Assembly (NCBI GenBank): GCA_017610545.1
Contig: JAFCBV010000007.1
Span: 1-13,157, forward strand
DNA: 13,157 bases
Source: Candidatus Nanohalarchaeota archaeon
GTDB taxonomy: Archaea > EX4484-52 > B79-G9
Direction: 5' to 3'
The notes under the pieces were generated by a model. That model had not been told where the DNA came from, made no database searches, and saw nothing but the letters and a program-made list of their open reading frames with translations. A program made the position numbers and the translations under genes. Positions within the stretch are counted from its first letter, which is position 1. Every line of letters begins with the position of its first letter. Below, in pieces: positions 1,387-9,349 of the stretch.

Positions 1387-3807
1387 ATGGATAAAATAAA
1401 TGCATTTATTTTATGGTTCGATCAATTAGGAATTGAAGACGTGCCTCTTGTCGGCGGAAAAAACGCATCTCTTGGTGAGATGTACCGAAACCTCTCGTCT
1501 CTTGGAGTTAAAATACCAAACGGCTTTGCCGTAACTTCAAAAGCTTACTGGCATTTTCTTGAAACCGCAGGAATAAAGGAAAAAATACACAAAATTCTTT
1601 CAGACCTTGATACGCGCAGCATTTCCAACCTTCGCGAGCACGGCGAAAAGGTGAGAAATACAATACTATCAGCAGAACTCCCCGATGATTTAAAGCAGGC
1701 AATTGTTGAAGCATATTCACATCTTGAAAAGCAGTACGGCGAGTTCGTTGACGTTGCAGTCCGCTCAAGCGCAACAGCAGAGGACCTTCCTGATGCAAGC
1801 TTTGCAGGCCAGCAGGAAACATACCTCAACATAACCGGTCCGGAATCATTGGTTCTGGCATGCAAGAAATGCATTGCATCCCTTTTCACAGACCGGGCAA
1901 TATCTTATCGTGCAGACAAGAACTTTGACCAGTTTTCTATTGCACTCTCAATAGGCGTCCAGAAAATGGTGCGCTCTGACATAGCAACAAGCGGTGTGAT
2001 GTTTTCAATTGATACCGAAAGCGGCTTTCCGGATGTTGTTGTAATAAACGCAGCATACGGGCTCGGCGAAAATGTTGTACAGGGCGCAGTAAATCCGGAC
2101 GAATATGTTGTCTTCAAGCCCACGCTTCTTGAAGGCAAAAAACCCATAATATCAAAATCACTGGGTTCAAAAGAACAAAAAATGGTCTATACAACAGACG
2201 GGCGCCACCCGACAAAGAATGTTGCGGTGCCCCTAGAAGAACAGAGGTCTTTCGCACTTTCCGATGATGAGATACTCAATCTTTCAAAGTGGGCATGTAC
2301 AATAGAGGGCCACTATTCTAAGAAAGCCGGCCACACAAAACCCATGGATATGGAATGGGCAAAAGACGGGGTAACCGGAGAATTGTTTATTGTGCAGGCG
2401 CGCCCGGAAACAGTCCAGTCCCAGAAGGACAAAAATGTTATCAAGACATATGTGCTAAAGCAAAAAGGAAAACTTCTTGTAGAAGGAACAAGTGTTGGAG
2501 ATAAAATTGGCAACGGGCGGGCGCACGTCATAAAGAGCGTTCATAATATTGATGAATTCAGGAAGGGCGAAGTTCTTGTTACAGACATGACAGATCCTGA
2601 CTGGGAACCAATAATGAAAATAGCATCCGCAATTGTCACAAACAGAGGCGGGCGCACATGCCACGCCGCAATAATTTCAAGGGAGCTTGGAATCCCATGT
2701 GTTGTCGGCACAGTCAATTCAACAGAATTGGTAAAAGACAAAGTGGATGTAACGGTTTCTTGCGCAGAGGGCGAGGAAGGTTATGTTTACAAAGGAAAGC
2801 TTGATTTTGAAATCCGCGAAATTAAGCTTGATGAAATACCTCAAACAAAAACAAAAATAATGATGAATGTCGGAAACCCGGGACAGGCATTTGATAATTC
2901 ATTCATCCCAAATGATGGTGTAGGCCTTGCGCGCGAGGAATTTGTGATAAATTCACATATAAAAATACACCCTCTTGCACTAGTACATTTCAGCAAGATA
3001 AAAAAGGACAAAAAAAATAATGACTTGGTAAAAGAAATAGAATCCCTTACTTATGGCTATAAAAACAAGACAGATTTTTTTGTTGACAAGCTTGCAGAAG
3101 GCATCGGTACAATTGGCGCCGCATTCTATCCTAAAGACGTTATAGTTCGATTGTCAGACTTCAAATCTAACGAGTATTCAAACCTGGTTGGAGGAAAACT
3201 TTTCGAGCCAAGTGAAGACAACCCCATGATTGGATGGAGAGGTGCGTCCAGGTATTATTCAGATAAATACCGGGCTGCGTTTGTCCTTGAGTGCAGGGCA
3301 CTCAAAAAAGTCAGGGACGACTTTGGCCTAAATAATGTAAAAATCATGATTCCTTTTTGCAGGACCATCACGGAAGGAAAAGCAGTTTTGGCAGAAATGA
3401 AAAAGAACGGCCTTAAGAAAGGAGAAAACGGGCTTGAGGTTTACGTCATGTGCGAAATTCCTTCAAACGTTATTCTTGCAGACAAGTTTTCTGAAATCTT
3501 TGACGGTTTTTCAATCGGCACAAATGACCTGACCCAATTAACACTCGGGCTTGACCGTGATTCTGAAATTGTCTCACACATTTATGATGAGCGAAACGAG
3601 GCCGTCAAGCGCCTGATTACCTGCGTAATAAAGACGGCAAAGGAAAAAAAGAGGAAAATCGGAATATGCGGGCAGGCGCCAAGCGACTTTCCTGATTTTG
3701 CAGAATTTCTTGTTGAGTGCGGAATTGACTCTATTTCTTTGAACCCGGACACTGTTGTCAAAACAAGGCTCACTATTGCAGAAAAAGAGAAAAACATGAA
3801 TGCATAA
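1387..3807 (+). CDS. ppsA: Phosphoenolpyruvate synthase (pyruvate, water dikinase)
   Basis: This 806-aa protein has the full length of the family. It converts pyruvate, ATP and water to phosphoenolpyruvate, AMP and phosphate, the entry to gluconeogenesis. The N-terminal ATP-grasp-like domain (about 1-350) starts with LVGGKNASLGEM and includes VRSSATAEDLPDASFAGQQE. The swivelling phosphohistidine domain has GGRTCHAAIISRELGIPCVVG with catalytic His426. The C-terminal TIM barrel contains NPMIGWRGASRYY, the CEIPSN stretch, FDGFSIGTNDLTQLTLGLDRD and GICGQ, with the acid/base Cys761. All expected active-site elements are intact. The order of domains and the SIGTNDLTQ motif favour PEP synthase over pyruvate phosphate dikinase. 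No strong Shine-Dalgarno is present (AGGGA 5 nt upstream). A tRNA gene follows 43 bp downstream. Confidence 0.96.
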   Translation: MDKINAFILWFDQLGIEDVPLVGGKNASLGEMYRNLSSLGVKIPNGFAVTSKAYWHFLETAGIKEKIHKILSDLDTRSISNLREHGEKVRNTILSAELPDDLKQAIVEAYSHLEKQYGEFVDVAVRSSATAEDLPDASFAGQQETYLNITGPESLVLACKKCIASLFTDRAISYRADKNFDQFSIALSIGVQKMVRSDIATSGVMFSIDTESGFPDVVVINAAYGLGENVVQGAVNPDEYVVFKPTLLEGKKPIISKSLGSKEQKMVYTTDGRHPTKNVAVPLEEQRSFALSDDEILNLSKWACTIEGHYSKKAGHTKPMDMEWAKDGVTGELFIVQARPETVQSQKDKNVIKTYVLKQKGKLLVEGTSVGDKIGNGRAHVIKSVHNIDEFRKGEVLVTDMTDPDWEPIMKIASAIVTNRGGRTCHAAIISRELGIPCVVGTVNSTELVKDKVDVTVSCAEGEEGYVYKGKLDFEIREIKLDEIPQTKTKIMMNVGNPGQAFDNSFIPNDGVGLAREEFVINSHIKIHPLALVHFSKIKKDKKNNDLVKEIESLTYGYKNKTDFFVDKLAEGIGTIGAAFYPKDVIVRLSDFKSNEYSNLVGGKLFEPSEDNPMIGWRGASRYYSDKYRAAFVLECRALKKVRDDFGLNNVKIMIPFCRTITEGKAVLAEMKKNGLKKGENGLEVYVMCEIPSNVILADKFSEIFDGFSIGTNDLTQLTLGLDRDSEIVSHIYDERNEAVKRLITCVIKTAKEKKRKIGICGQAPSDFPDFAEFLVECGIDSISLNPDTVVKTRLTIAEKEKNMNA

Positions 3808-3817
3808 GCGGATAAGC

Positions 3818-3825
3818 ATAATAAT
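3818..3825 (+). promoter_or_regulatory. Possible TATA box for tRNA-Pro unit
   Basis: The A+T-rich ATAATAAT sits about 29 bp before the first base of the tRNA, the expected distance for an archaeal TATA box with a very short tRNA leader. It is weak, and read-through from ppsA is also possible. Confidence 0.35.
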
Positions 3826-3867
3826 CTTTCTGCACAACCTATCTCTATCAGGGGCCTTGGGGTAGCT

Positions 3868-3898
3868 TCGCGCAATGCTACTGTTTTGCGCGCTACAA
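3868..3898 (+). other. D-loop intron of tRNA-Pro (31 nt, canonical-type BHB core)
   Basis: Exon bases GTAG (3862-3865) pair with intron CTAC (3893-3896) to give the 4-bp central helix. It is flanked by a 3-nt 5' bulge CTT (3866-3868) and a 3-nt 3' bulge AAT (3897-3899). The intron then closes with the 5-bp helix CGCGC (3869-3873) / GCGCG (3888-3892) around a 14-nt loop. Cutting after the second base of each bulge joins AGCT to TGGTATCC, restoring a normal D-loop. The outer exon-exon helix is not evident, so it is of the HBh' form. Confidence 0.88.
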
Positions 3899-3940
3899 TG
3901 GTATCCTTCCGGTTTCGGGGACCGGGGACCTGAGTTCAAA

Positions 3941-3983
3941 ATTTGGTGAGATTGTATGTTTGAATCAACTCGTCCAATGAAAA
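3941..3983 (+). other. T-loop intron of tRNA-Pro (43 nt, relaxed BHB)
   Basis: The T stem CTGAG/CTCAG (3930-3934, 3985-3989) is the outer helix. Exon TTCA (3935-3938) pairs with intron TGAA (3978-3981) as the 4-bp central helix. The 3' bulge is AAT (3982-3984). The 5' bulge is AAAT (3939-3942), one base longer than canonical. The intron helix TTGG (3943-3946) / CCAA (3974-3977) continues through GAG/CTC (3948-3950, 3969-3971) and TTG/CAA (3952-3954, 3966-3968) to an 11-nt loop. Cutting after the second base of each bulge gives the standard T-loop TTCAAAT. Confidence 0.85.
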
Positions 3984-4016
3984 TCTCAGGGGCCCCACTA
4001 ATTATGAGGTGTAATT

Positions 4017-4346
4017 ATGCAACCAGTAATGAAGCAAGCACAACAAAACATAATGAAAAGCAGGATGCCGCCAATTTTCGCGGATGAAGCAGTAATCATA
4101 ACCCCGATTCGGGCAATGAAAGACAAAGACGGAAATATAACAAAAGAAGGTCATGTAGTTGTTGTTTTTGTTGATATGACAACACAGCAGCCCGTCTCAA
4201 AAATTGCAATGACCACAACAACTGCAAAAAACCTTGAGCGCGCACTTACAAATTCAATAGAGCGCCTTGAAAAAGACCTTAAATCCAAGGACATTCCTAT
4301 AAAACCCACAGAAGTAACAGAAACTTCAACAAAATACATTGGGTGA
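4017..4346 (+). CDS. Small DUF3467-like protein (109 aa)
   Basis: The protein has no membrane segment or signal peptide. A strand-rich N-terminal half (DEAVIITPIRAMKDKDGNI, HVVVVFVDMTTQQPVSKIAM) is followed by a helix (AKNLERALTNSIERLEKDL). The order of a strand pair ending in 'PVSKIAMT', then 'AKNLERAL..SIERLEKD', resembles DUF3467-type proteins, in which a conserved AKxLxxAL helix follows a V-A-R-I-V-M strand. I give this as a likeness, not a firm assignment. No biochemical function is known for it. The start is fixed by a strong GAGGTG at 4006-4011, 5 nt from the ATG. It lies 19 nt downstream of the tRNA, and its stop overlaps the ribosome binding site of the next reading frame, so tRNA, this gene and the HIT region probably form one transcript. 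Confidence 0.7.
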   Translation: MQPVMKQAQQNIMKSRMPPIFADEAVIITPIRAMKDKDGNITKEGHVVVVFVDMTTQQPVSKIAMTTTTAKNLERALTNSIERLEKDLKSKDIPIKPTEVTETSTKYIG

Positions 4347-4350
4347 TATT

Positions 4351-4524
4351 ATGAATGACTGTATTTTTTGTAAAATTTTTGACGAGCGAGACCTTGCGAA
4401 ACATGCTCGTATTGAGCAAGAGTTGAGTTGTCAGAAAAGCTTGAAAAGCCGAACCAAAAACATCGTGGATTTTCATGATCATCTCATTTCGCTGCGGCTT
4501 CATTCGAAGCTTTTGCAAAAGTAA
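4351..4524 (+). pseudogene. Truncated duplicate of HIT gene start with unrelated insert
   Basis: The first 26 bases repeat the start of the intact HIT gene at 4537 with one mismatch (T/C at 4371/4557), giving MNDCIFCKI in both. After that the sequence diverges completely, and the frame runs to a TAA at 4522-4524, giving a 57-residue peptide. A good ribosome binding site, GGTGAT at 4342-4347, overlaps the stop of the upstream gene, so the stub could still be translated. The repeat unit spacing is 186 bp, exactly 62 codons. The simplest reading is that the HIT gene originally began here and an insertion with a duplicated flank displaced it. The insert contains several short inverted repeats: ACGAGC/GCTCGT (4382-4387, 4405-4410), GCTTC/GAAGC (4497-4501, 4506-4510) and the palindrome CTTTTGCAAAAG (4510-4521). 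Confidence 0.6.
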
Positions 4525-4536
4525 GAGGGGAACACT

Positions 4537-5088
4537 ATGAATGACTGTATTTTTTGCAAAATCATTGCAGGGCAAATACCTGCCTTGAAAATCTACGAAG
4601 ACGCAAACTTCATAGGTTTTCTTGACATAAACCCGCGACGCCGCGGACACGCCGTCGTAATACCAAAGCGCCACGTAAAGACGCTCCTCGAACTGCCCGA
4701 AAAACTTGCAGGAGAATATCTCGAAGTTGTGCAGGCTGTTGCACGGCACATAGTCGGAGCTCTTGGTGCAAAAGGATTCAATTTCGGCTCGAACAATGGC
4801 GAAGTAGCAGGGCAGATAGTGCCACACCTCCACATACACATATTACCAAGATTCTCAGGTGAAAAAATAACCGCCGGCTTTGAAGCAATCTTCCAGCCGG
4901 ATGAAGCACTAAAAAAAGAGCTTGAGCCAACACAGAAAAAAATCGGCAGGCTCGCACCACTAATCCGCCCTGATTTTTCCGAGAGAAAAGAAAAGAAAAA
5001 GCCCGAGAAAAAAGAAGAGTCAAGCACAGATACTGGCGAACCTAAATGGGACTTTGACGGCAGAGAAAACCAACCGGAGAATTTTTAA
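4537..5088 (+). CDS. HIT family nucleotide hydrolase/transferase with charged C-terminal tail
   Basis: This 183-aa protein is a histidine triad hydrolase of the Hint/Fhit superfamily, which cleaves nucleoside phosphoramidates or dinucleoside polyphosphates. The triad is PHLHIHILPR at 96-105 (His97, His99, His101), with His99 the expected nucleophile. Cys4 and Cys7 (CIFC), with His46 and His97, could form the zinc site seen in many microbial HIT proteins. The HIT fold covers about residues 1-110. The remainder is an unusual hydrophilic tail of about 70 residues with a lysine/glutamate-rich run (ERKEKKKPEKKEESS) ending in GRENQPENF, probably disordered. The start follows GAGGGGA at 4525-4531. 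The same start region is duplicated 186 bp upstream. Substrate cannot be predicted. Confidence 0.92.
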   Translation: MNDCIFCKIIAGQIPALKIYEDANFIGFLDINPRRRGHAVVIPKRHVKTLLELPEKLAGEYLEVVQAVARHIVGALGAKGFNFGSNNGEVAGQIVPHLHIHILPRFSGEKITAGFEAIFQPDEALKKELEPTQKKIGRLAPLIRPDFSERKEKKKPEKKEESSTDTGEPKWDFDGRENQPENF

Positions 5089-5594: not shown

Positions 5595-8500
5595 ATGTAT
5601 GACCAAAAAGAAATCGAGAAGAAAATATCAGAACTATGGGAGAAAGAGAAAGTCCCTGAAAAAGTCAGGACAAGAAACCCAAAAGGCAAAAAATGCTATG
5701 TCCTTGACGGCCCGCCATACACAACGGGTGAGCCGCATGTCGGGCATCTTAGGACCACCCTTGCAAAGGACTTATGGATAAAGCTTCGCATGATGCAAGG
5801 ATATAATGTACGCATCCAGCCGGGTTTTGACTGCAACGGGCTTCCGATTGAAAATAAGGTCGAGCAGGAACTTGGCGTCAAGTGCAAAAGCGACATAGAA
5901 AAAATTGGTGTCGACAAGTTCATGAAAACCTGCGAGCAATATGCTGAAGGGAACATCCCAAAATGGCTTGGTGTATACAAGCGCTTTGCAGCATGGGTTG
6001 GTTGGGTTGAGCCATACAAGACATACAAGAACTACTATCATGAGAGCGGATGGTGGACAATAAAACAAATTTATGACAAGGGATTTTTGATTCCCGGCGA
6101 AAAACCGCTTTACTGGTGCCCGCACTGTGAAACAGCAATTTCTGCGTTTGAAGCGCAAGACAGCTATAAAGATGTTACAGACCCTGCCGTTTATGTGAAG
6201 TTCCCCCTCAAAGAAAAGAAAAACGAGTATCTCGTAATATTCACGACAACCCCCTGGACCCTTCCGGCAAATGTTGCAGCAGCAGTCCACCCTGATGAAA
6301 AATATGTCCGGGTTCAGGCAAATGACGACATACTTATTCTCGCAGAAAAGCTCATAAAAGACGTTATGAAAAAAGCAAAGGTTTCTGATTACAAAGTTCT
6401 TGAAACATTTCCCGGAAAAAAACTAGAGGGATTAAAGTACTTGCCGGCACTTGATGTCCCGCTTCAAAAAGGGCTTGAAAAAAAAGCGAATGCACAAAAA
6501 GTAATCCTTTCAGTTCCAATACTTCTAAAAAAGGGTGCAGGTAAGACCGCAGTTAAGACTGGCTCTGATGCAAAAGCAGAGTTTGGCCACCTGGTCACAA
6601 TGGATGTCGGAACAGGAATAGTCCACATTGCCCCGGGGCATGGACAGGAAGACAACCGAATTGGAGCAAACTACAGCCTGCCGATTGTCTCCCCTGTTGA
6701 AGAAAACGGAACATTCGATGATACCGTCGGAAAATTTGCAGGCCTCTTTGTCAAAGATGCAGACAAAAAAATAATAGCTTACCTGAAAGAACGCGGGCTT
6801 CTTCTTTATTCTGAGCAGATAACACACCCATATCCTCTTTGCTGGAGATGTAAAAGCCCGCTATTGTTTAGAATGAGCAAGCAGTGGTTCTTCAAAATTG
6901 ATGCAATAAAGCAGAAGATGCTTGATGCCAACAGCAAAATAAACTGGATGCCCGAGTTTGCGCGCGTCCGTATGCACAACTGGCTTGAGGATGCTGAGGA
7001 TTGGGCATTCTCAACCCAAAGATACTGGGGCATCTCAATACCGATATGGATTTGCGAAGATTGCGGCAAAACCAAGGTCATAGGCTCGCGTAAAGAACTT
7101 CAAAAAGAAGCCATAGAAAAAATACCAAATGATGTTGACCTGCACAAAAACACTGTTGACAAAATCCACATAAAGTGCCGGTGTGGCAAAACAATGAACC
7201 GCATCCGCGACACTGCAAACGTATGGTTTGACTCAGGCATCGCGCCCTGGGCATCAATGGGATATCCATTTCAAAACAAAGACGTTTTTGAAAAATTCTG
7301 GCCCGCAGATCAGATATCCGAAAGTCAGGATCAGGTTCGCGCGTGGTTTTACCACATGCTTTTCATGGGAATGATAACTTTTGATGAAACTCCCTTCAAT
7401 GCCGCATCCGTCACCGGATGGGTGCTTGACAAAAAGGGAGAAAAAATGTCAAAGTCCCTCGGAAATGTGATTTCCGCAGAAGATGCCATAGATGAACTAG
7501 GCACAGATGTTGTGCGATTTTACTATTGCTACGACACCGCATCATGGGACACGCAAAAGTTCAACAAAGACTCTGCGCGCGAAATAAATAGGATTCTAAA
7601 CTCTCTTTGGAATGTAAAAGAGTTTTACAAAAGCTATGGCGGAACAAAAGAAGAAAAAATAAATTCCAGGATTCTCAAAAAAGAGGACAAATGGATTCTT
7701 TCGCGGGTAAATACTTTGACAAAAGAATATACAGAACATCTTGAAAAATTCGAGTGGCACTTTGCAGGAAGGAAACTTGCAGAATTTATCCTTAATGACT
7801 TTTCACGCTGGTACATAAAACTCGTGCGCACGCGAGTATCAACATCTTACAAAGGCGATGACAAGGAAAACGTTTTTGCAGTAAGCGCATACATTCTTCG
7901 AAAAATAGCACTTCTGCTCACCCCTGTCTGCCCATTCATGTCAGAAGCTATATTTCAGGAAATGAAAACTTCCGGCACAAAAGAGAAATCTGTGCATTTT
8001 TGCAAGTGGCCGGAATATAACAAAGAATATGTTAACTCAGCACTTGAAAAAGACATGGATGTTGCAAAAAGCATTGTTGAGGCATCGAACTCTGCAAGAC
8101 AAGACAACGACCTCAAACTCAGGTGGCCGCTTAGAAAAATAACAATCTCCGGCGAAAAAGATGTCCTTACATCCGCAAAGAATTCAAAGGAAATCCTGAA
8201 ATTCATGGCAAACGTCCTTGATGTTGATTTTGGAATGCTGAAACTCAAAGTCATAGCAAAGCCAAATTATAAGGTACTCGGCCCTGCATTTGGCAAAAAA
8301 GCAAAAGACGCGGCATTATTGATAGAGAAAATTGACTCTAAAAAGATACAGGAAATTTCTTCAAAAGGAAAAATATCTCTTGGTAGTTTCAGCATCACAA
8401 AAGATATGGTACTAATAAAAGAGAGCATTCCGGAAGGCGTTGCCGGAAAGACATTTGAGGGCGGAAGTGTTTATCTTGATTCGACGCGCGACAAGGTTAT

Positions 8501-9163: not shown

Positions 9164-9349
9164 AAGTGAAGTCACTTGCTACGCTGCGTTCCAACATTTC
9201 GGAAATCTGCTTCGCAAATTTCCTGCATTTCAGAAATACAGGAAATGTACGAAGTACATTTCTGAAATCTCCGAGACAAAACTCATTGAAGTGTCTCGAA
9301 GACTCTCCAACCGGCAACTCCACTCCAAATAATGGAGTTACAACGGTTG
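9164..9349. repeat. Array of five hairpins in the intergenic region
   Basis: Five inverted repeats follow each other: AAGTG/CACTT (9164-9177); GGAAATCTGC/GCAAATTTCC with a TTC loop (9201-9223, one mismatch); GAAATGTAC/GTACATTTC with a GAA loop (9242-9262, perfect); CGAGACA/TGTCTCG (9272-9298); and a two-part stem CAACCG/CGGTTG with AACTCCA/TGGAGTT (9308-9349). Nothing in the region looks coding. It could be a structured RNA, a decayed mobile or repeat element, or transcript 3'-end structures. No periodic unit or CRISPR spacing is present. The remaining bases of the 252-bp gap (9131-9163, 9350-9382) hold only the promoter of the next gene. Confidence 0.6.

Follow-up and report, generated by a model that had tools for sequence, protein, structure and literature searches.

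The window analysed here is the whole stretch of 13,157 bases, a contig that belongs to a 953-kb archaeal genome with a completeness of 82.65% (G000), probably of a DPANN lineage near Candidatus Nanohalarchaeota. Between a gene of the PEP synthase/PPDK type (1387-3807) and a small open reading frame without Pfam match (4017-4346) lies a tRNA-Pro gene with anticodon CGG, divided into three exons by one intron in the D loop and another in the T loop. The features are the following.

3812-3850, forward strand: stretch upstream of tRNA-Pro(CGG), conserved in the genome G001 (95% identity over 3812-3940)
3851-3997, forward strand: tRNA-Pro(CGG) gene with three exons and two introns, from sequence, ARAGORN and conservation in G001 (L025:1069-1216)
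3851-3867, forward strand: exon 1, tRNA nucleotides 1-17, 17 nt
3868-3898, forward strand: D-loop intron, site 17/17a, 31 nt
3899-3940, forward strand: exon 2, 42 nt, which holds the CGG anticodon in an uninterrupted anticodon loop (UUCGGGG)
3941-3983, forward strand: T-loop intron, site 59/60, 43 nt
3984-3997, forward strand: exon 3, from U60 to the discriminator A73, 14 nt, CCA not encoded
4376-4450, forward strand: one copy of a repeat linked to tRNA genes, probably with a pseudoknot, and no part of the tRNA-Pro gene

The joined exons give a tRNA of 73 nucleotides, with seven base pairs in the acceptor stem, five in the anticodon stem, five in the T stem, and three pairs plus a U13.U22 mismatch in the D stem. 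Exons of 17, 42 and 14 nt, and introns in the D and T loops with none at 37/38, had been proposed in a first-pass annotation of the sequence; both proposals are borne out by the sequence, where the anticodon loop is whole, and by ARAGORN, which recognizes a standard tRNA, tRNA-Pro(cgg), when both introns are removed in silico. The product had also been called fully paired, which is correct except for the mismatch in the D stem. The sequence leaves the cut points ambiguous by about one base, and the coordinates above are those selected by BHB geometry. We conclude with high confidence that 3851-3997 is a functional tRNA-Pro(CGG) gene, the two introns of which would be spliced as BHB introns, the type removed by the archaeal splicing endonuclease. 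The conserved stretch upstream may, at a guess, be its promoter or leader.

When the contig is searched as it stands, the gene is listed neither by ARAGORN nor by Rfam at E ≤ 1, and the Rfam matches in the window are chance ones alone. Without its intron option ARAGORN finds no tRNA in 3851-3997, whether the DNA is left unspliced or has lost the D intron or the T intron alone, and with this option it makes a single call, a false tRNA-Gln in the T-spliced DNA. The expectation that standard annotation would miss the gene is thus right for these two programs, but tRNAscan-SE 2.0 includes a step that looks iteratively for BHB introns at non-canonical sites (PMC8450103, in excerpt). In G000 as a whole, Rfam at E ≤ 1e-3 gives 23 tRNA places. 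Non-canonical introns are found in three of the weakest of these (L021-L023), as well as in several tRNA genes that fall under this cut-off or are wholly missed, and counts of tRNA genes in such genomes come out too low. At L021 (G000:C30:2823-2935), one of the weak places, a tRNA-Thr(GGT) gene is probably interrupted close to where the D stem ends, a further non-canonical site.

A search of G000, at its 82.65% completeness, for a second tRNA-Pro(CGG) gave none. It had been suggested that the split gene, if overlooked, would leave CCG codons apparently without a decoder. This need not follow, as the genome has an intron-free tRNA-Pro(TGG) (L009) which could read CCG by wobble, and tRNA-Pro(CGG) need not be the sole reader of this codon. 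The genome also encodes a tRNA-Pro with anticodon GGG and a T-loop intron. In the family to which G000 belongs, this isoacceptor has C33 in place of the usual U33 (loop UCGGGGA) in five distinct genes that were parsed (L023/L035, L027, L032, L033 and L138); L145, from another family, has U33.

Splice motifs and splicing enzymes

At the T-loop junction, 3935-3938 (UUCA) pairs with 3978-3981 (UGAA) in a central helix, and 3943-3946 pairs with 3974-3977 in an inner helix h', with AA|A as the 5' bulge and AA|U as the 3' bulge. Two bulges of three nucleotides thus flank a helix of four base pairs, and the junction is a strict hBHBh' motif, in which the inner helix begins one base later or carries a bulged U. 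The pairing is general: U54-U55-C56-R57 pairs with intron nucleotides -6 to -3, which read YGAA or nearly so. Over 14 T-loop introns, 53 of the 56 central-helix pairs are formed, against a mean of 22.9 and a maximum of 37 in 5000 shuffles, and an A57xG mismatch occurs in three of the introns. In an alignment of 13 rows, 92.7% of the paired cells are paired and the covariation is 0.571, compared with 0.165 for shuffled and 0.10-0.22 for slid alignments, a score to which the T stem contributes a part.

At the D-loop junction, 3862-3865 (G12U13A14G15) can pair with 3893-3896 (CUAC), and the inner helix h' joins 3869-3874 to 3887-3892, with CU|U as the 5' bulge and AA|U as the 3' bulge. A full BHB is absent from this junction, where no outer helix lies next to the 3' bulge. 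Among related D introns, nucleotides 12-15 (GUAG) pair with CUAC, CUAU or CUAA, and 41 of 48 central-helix pairs are formed over 12 intron units (mean 22.2 and maximum 33 in 3000 shuffles). The inner helices covary (CGCGC/GCGCG, CATGCG/CGCATG, ACGAT/ATTGT). Since G12xA mismatches occur in seven of the 12 units and no outer helix adjoins the motif, the D site is assigned to the relaxed HBh' form, a known variant of the BHB motif (PMC4090602, in excerpt). The first-pass annotation, which had placed a BHB at each junction, is therefore right for the T loop in the strict sense, but in the D loop for a relaxed motif only. It had also proposed folding of the precursor as a check, and the outcome is divided in the same way: the T-loop BHB is part of the minimum free energy (MFE) structure, with central-helix pair probabilities of 0.44-0.48, but the D-loop conformer is less stable than the MFE structure by 1.4 kcal/mol and has a pair probability of 0.33. 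Endonucleases of narrow specificity would cut the relaxed D-loop junction poorly.

A tandem D intron was seen in a tRNA-Pro(GGG) of the genome G006 (L033:1311-1392), where two intron-like 41-nt units stand one after the other, each able to form the motif, so that two rounds of splicing may be needed. At 12 nt downstream of this gene lies a tRNA-Pro(CGG) with a D intron, which in the copy on the other contig has a T intron too.

Splicing is envisaged as follows. The T-loop nucleotides U54-U55-C56-A57 would pair with the intron end UGAA, and the D-arm nucleotides G12-U13-A14-G15 with the intron end CUAC. Each pairing would form a helix of four base pairs, with cut sites contained in the 3-nt bulges. 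By analogy with the known pathway, the splicing endonuclease would cut within the bulges and RtcB would join the exons to a normal tRNA of 73 nt. Since both introns hold nucleotides of the tRNA core or elbow, they should be excised before the T loop is modified and the tRNA takes its final fold.

RtcB is encoded in G000 (E = 8.4e-170) and in nine of the 11 genomes of the family. A splicing endonuclease was not found in G000, at its stated completeness; a search with PF01974 gave exactly one gene in 27 of the 34 genomes of the order, and no match in six further ones, each less than 90% complete. The same search gave no second (beta) subunit in the order, although a divergent one could be missed by PF01974. 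Among archaeal splicing endonucleases of solved structure, the G001 enzyme is closest to 5x89 (E = 1e-29), followed by 1a79 (E = 1.4e-26). We take 1a79 to be the Methanocaldococcus jannaschii enzyme, and 4fz2 that of ARMAN-2.

In an alignment of 39 archaeal endonucleases, 22 of them from the 27 found in the order, the enzymes of the order have two extra segments, one of about four amino acids at the ASL/CSL place and one of about seven between the catalytic Tyr and His. The shorter segment (FGK[WYFI]...) exceeds the shortest archaeal sequences, and its lysine is present in all 22 aligned sequences of the order and, outside it, in G043 and G046. The longer one is shared with G050 and G059, both outside the order, and with the alpha subunit of N. 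equitans. ASL/CSL loops are known from the epsilon2 endonuclease of ARMAN-2 and the (alpha-beta)2 endonucleases of crenarchaea (PMC12397907, in excerpt), which the enzyme of the order may resemble, being about four residues longer than the shortest archaeal sequences at that place and having the FGK lysine. Broad specificity, for which CSL/ASL endonucleases are known, would be a candidate property of this enzyme. Unlike those enzymes as described there, it has one gene found, its reading frames are of single-unit length, and the Tyr-Lys pair of the ASL is not conserved. The strict T site and the relaxed D site are natural substrates for an endonuclease apparently encoded by one gene. The loop was also considered as the cause of the T-loop introns, an idea that finds no support, as the same loop occurs in G017, G022 and G033, which have no T-intron match.

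D- and T-loop introns in related genomes

G001, from the same genus, has a tRNA-Pro(CGG) with both introns at the same sites, of 32 nt in the D loop and 43 nt in the T loop. Its exons are identical to those of G000 but for one pair of the T stem, changed on both sides from A52-U62 to U52-A62, and its T intron has no clear likeness to that of G000 (z ≤ 2.3). More widely, a 231-base region around the gene has matches in nine of 61 genomes, G000 included, some of which correspond to a part of tRNA-Pro or to one intron. The pattern of a D-loop intron in tRNA-Pro occurs at 13 places in 11 of the 34 genomes of the order, representing three of its 12 genera, and the reversed control pattern has zero matches in the same 34 genomes. 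At least eight tRNA-Pro genes have D and T introns together (one each in G000, G001, G002, G010, G029 and G031, and two in G006), with anticodons CGG, GGG and TGG. This is a lower bound, because four loci with a D intron (L141, L142, L143 and L146, of which L142 stops at the end of its contig) could not be parsed; a further locus, L148, is a tRNA-Pro(TGG) with the D intron only. A gene interrupted in both arms had been regarded as rare, but from its occurrence in at least eight tRNA-Pro genes of seven of the 34 genomes it follows that the arrangement is not an isolated rarity, and many tRNA genes of the order have T-loop introns.

The last point rests on a model of the T-loop introns, applied at E ≤ 0.05 with strict filters that lose weak matches; for instance, the tRNA-Gly(TCC) gene of G000 is unlisted. 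It gave 92 matches, 84 of them in 25 of the 34 genomes of the order and eight in five of 27 other archaeal genomes. When the predicted intron is removed, ARAGORN finds a tRNA across the junction in 74 of the 92 cases, compared with eight in the unspliced DNA. The tRNA-Pro(CGG) of G000 is counted among the 74 just as a false tRNA-Gln, because its D intron stays in. Seven of the 18 matches that give no tRNA after T-splicing are tRNA-Pro genes that have a D intron as well, and the remaining 11 are truncated or false matches or lack an explanation. At least one confirmed match is present in 23 of the 34 genomes, and G014 and G015 have unconfirmed ones only. According to the ARAGORN labels, some of which may be wrong, the hosts within the order cover 13 of the 20 amino acids (Ala, Arg, Asp, Glu, Gly, His, Ile, Leu, Lys, Pro, Ser, Thr and Tyr). 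In G000 itself, T-loop introns are found in tRNA-Pro(CGG), the tRNA-Pro with anticodon GGG, tRNA-Ala(CGC), tRNA-Ala(GGC), tRNA-Lys(CTT) and tRNA-Leu(TAA) and, by reading of the sequence, in tRNA-Gly(TCC) (L169).

These comparisons bear on what else the locus could be. If it were a decaying pseudogene, with inserts that are debris and stay unspliced, the presence of an intron-free tRNA-Pro(TGG) that could read CCG would speak in favour of this. Yet the exons of G001 differ by a compensatory pair only, at the same time as the T intron has diverged, BHB pairing has been kept at both junctions through sequence change, and the same layout recurs in seven genomes; decay is therefore very unlikely. 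One could also imagine that the three exons are tRNA-like pieces assembled by chance, since two freely chosen introns allow many combinations. Against this stand the recurrence of these exons and intron sites in G001 and in other relatives, the 13 D-intron matches with none in the reversed control, and a T-intron score of 47.4 bits here against 13.1 for the next place in the contig, with the G000 copy itself in the training set. By this conservation, chance assembly is in practice refuted. Split or permuted tRNAs and self-splicing (group I) introns exist in archaea or bacteria, but here the exons are contiguous and in order, inserts of 31 and 43 nt fall well below the size of a group I intron, and a group I match is absent from Rfam results, which makes such an arrangement scarcely credible. 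A functional gene with two BHB introns is the reading that we retain.

Introns of this kind are known. Multiple non-canonical introns, the site 59/60 and relaxed BHB motifs have been described for Thermoproteales and others (PMC4090602, in excerpt), and tRNA-Pro(UGG) of Pyrobaculum islandicum has introns at 25/26, 56/57 and the canonical site (PMC4090602, in excerpt). The two cases are alike in that a single tRNA-Pro is interrupted at more than one site by introns of the BHB or relaxed-BHB form (PMC4090602, in excerpt); the present gene differs in having them at 17/17a and 59/60 with none at 37/38, in another archaeal lineage with one endonuclease gene found. In the red alga Cyanidioschyzon merolae, tRNA-Ile(UAU) has introns in the D, anticodon and T arms, and the T intron blocks Pus4 at U55 (PMC9602550, in excerpt). 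This is again a combination of D- and T-arm introns in one tRNA, but in a eukaryote and with an anticodon intron in addition (PMC9602550, in excerpt). A literature search, with most subscription journals outside it, gave no report of D+T or T-loop tRNA introns in this order, so that the kind of intron is known and the lineage is new in the literature searched.

Likeness between introns of different tRNAs

To compare T introns with each other, their last 6 nt at the 3' end were left out. The T intron of tRNA-Pro(CGG) in G000 then matches the introns of tRNA-Lys(CTT), with z values of 6.6-6.7 within G000 and 6.9-7.7 for G002, at about 73% identity. The pair formed by the tRNA-Pro(CGG) T introns of G000 and G001 falls outside the best 16 pairs. 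The nearest to the G001 intron was that of tRNA-Pro(GGG) in G006 (z = 4.6) in a first comparison, and in a larger one it groups with an Arg(CCT) cluster. Elsewhere in the order, the introns of Arg(GCG) and Arg(TCT) in G032 are 97% alike, and those of Arg(TCT) in G032 and Glu(CTC) in G027 are identical over the compared core, in both cases with tRNA T stems that differ. In G012, the introns of Ala(CGC) and two Leu tRNAs are 85% alike, and that of Gly(TCC) 74%. At z ≥ 6 there are 11 clusters, four of which mix isotypes. The remaining seven hold one known label each, and from this it follows that many T introns look simply inherited.

From the likeness to Lys introns, the T intron of tRNA-Pro(CGG) in G000 was probably copied between genes, and judged by such sequence comparisons some members of the 59/60 class of the order seem to have passed as copies from one tRNA gene to another. 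The opposing explanation is that all these introns were inherited and diverged, with the resemblance between Pro(CGG) and Lys reflecting shared constraint, as both introns are bound to base-pair with the T loop and to fold into a hairpin, their identity is merely about 73%, and seven of the 11 clusters carry a single known isotype label. The z values of 6.6-7.7 were nevertheless obtained with the constrained last 6 nt left out, at the same time as the G000-G001 pair stays at or below 2.3; introns of 97-100% identity reside in different tRNAs with different T stems, and the isotype-mixing clusters already speak against constraint as the full account. Inheritance without copying is for these reasons improbable, though it keeps an appreciable weight.

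Copying is the reading developed here. The portability of T-loop introns would probably be due to the UUCR that most tRNAs offer to an intron ending in YGAA. In its widest form the proposal is that the tiny introns at 59/60 are a mobile class, which would spread from tRNA to tRNA via YGAA/UUCR, that the elbow of a tRNA with D and T introns would be blocked until both are spliced, and that a single-gene endonuclease with a loop of its own would serve them; we judge the chances of this whole to be about even. Transposition of introns among tRNAs is known for Thermoproteales and others (PMC4033280, in excerpt). The likeness is that similar introns occur in different tRNAs (PMC4033280, in excerpt), and in comparison with the cases described there the introns here occupy one site (59/60), in another lineage, with the pairing rule UUCR/YGAA. 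Multi-intron tRNA genes and intron copying would thereby be extended from Thermoproteales to a little-studied archaeal order, with UUCR/YGAA as a simple, testable rule for the movement of T-loop introns.

A tRNA-linked repeat and other observations

The repeat at 4376-4450 belongs to a set of tandem units of about 103 nt with ...AAAAGCTTGAAAAGC, which has 34 matches in G000, 27 in G001, and weak candidate matches in 12 other genomes. Copies flank tRNAs in G000 and G001 (L025:1217-1495, L002, L005, L006, L010 and L021). In G000, 32 of the 34 matches have a tRNA gene, or in two cases a tRNA-like fragment, no more than 400 nt away; 14 abut a tRNA end by 0-2 nt (nine at the 3' and five at the 5' end), reading away from it; and 11 of the 12 contigs with the repeat hold a tRNA gene. 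One of the 34 matches overlaps another on the opposite strand. In G001, tRNA-Pro ends at L025:1216 and the tandem repeat begins at 1217, and in the window the 3' end of tRNA-Pro is followed by 19 bases and an ATG, with no repeat, so that G001 is the occupied site and the present contig the empty one. The repeat has no Rfam match at E ≤ 0.1 for five loci with copies, and a literature search gave no paper on it.

In an 18-row alignment of the repeat, 95.4% of the paired cells are paired, with a covariation of 0.610 against 0.243 for shuffled and at most 0.09 for slid alignments. An outer stem and a main hairpin are supported, with three of four and seven of eight pairs, respectively, changed on both sides; a crossing helix is probable from the sequences, and since one of its five pairs only is changed on both sides the case for a pseudoknot is weaker than that for the hairpin. 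T introns might conceivably stem from the repeat next to tRNA genes, with which the intron of Pro(GGG) has, by eye, GCTTGAAAAGC in common.

In the region 4320-4567 of the window there is a HIT-family gene whose beginning (MNDCIFCKI...) occurs a second time upstream, in a short open reading frame (4339-4524) that runs into the repeat. At 9197-9267 there is a near-palindrome of 71 nt, with a chance match to a microRNA model of Rfam on both strands. Finally, L170 (G000:C11, about 6586-6670) is a copy resembling tRNA-Leu(CAG), degenerate at its 5' side and followed by the tRNA-linked repeat, which looks like a tRNA pseudogene that was carried along.
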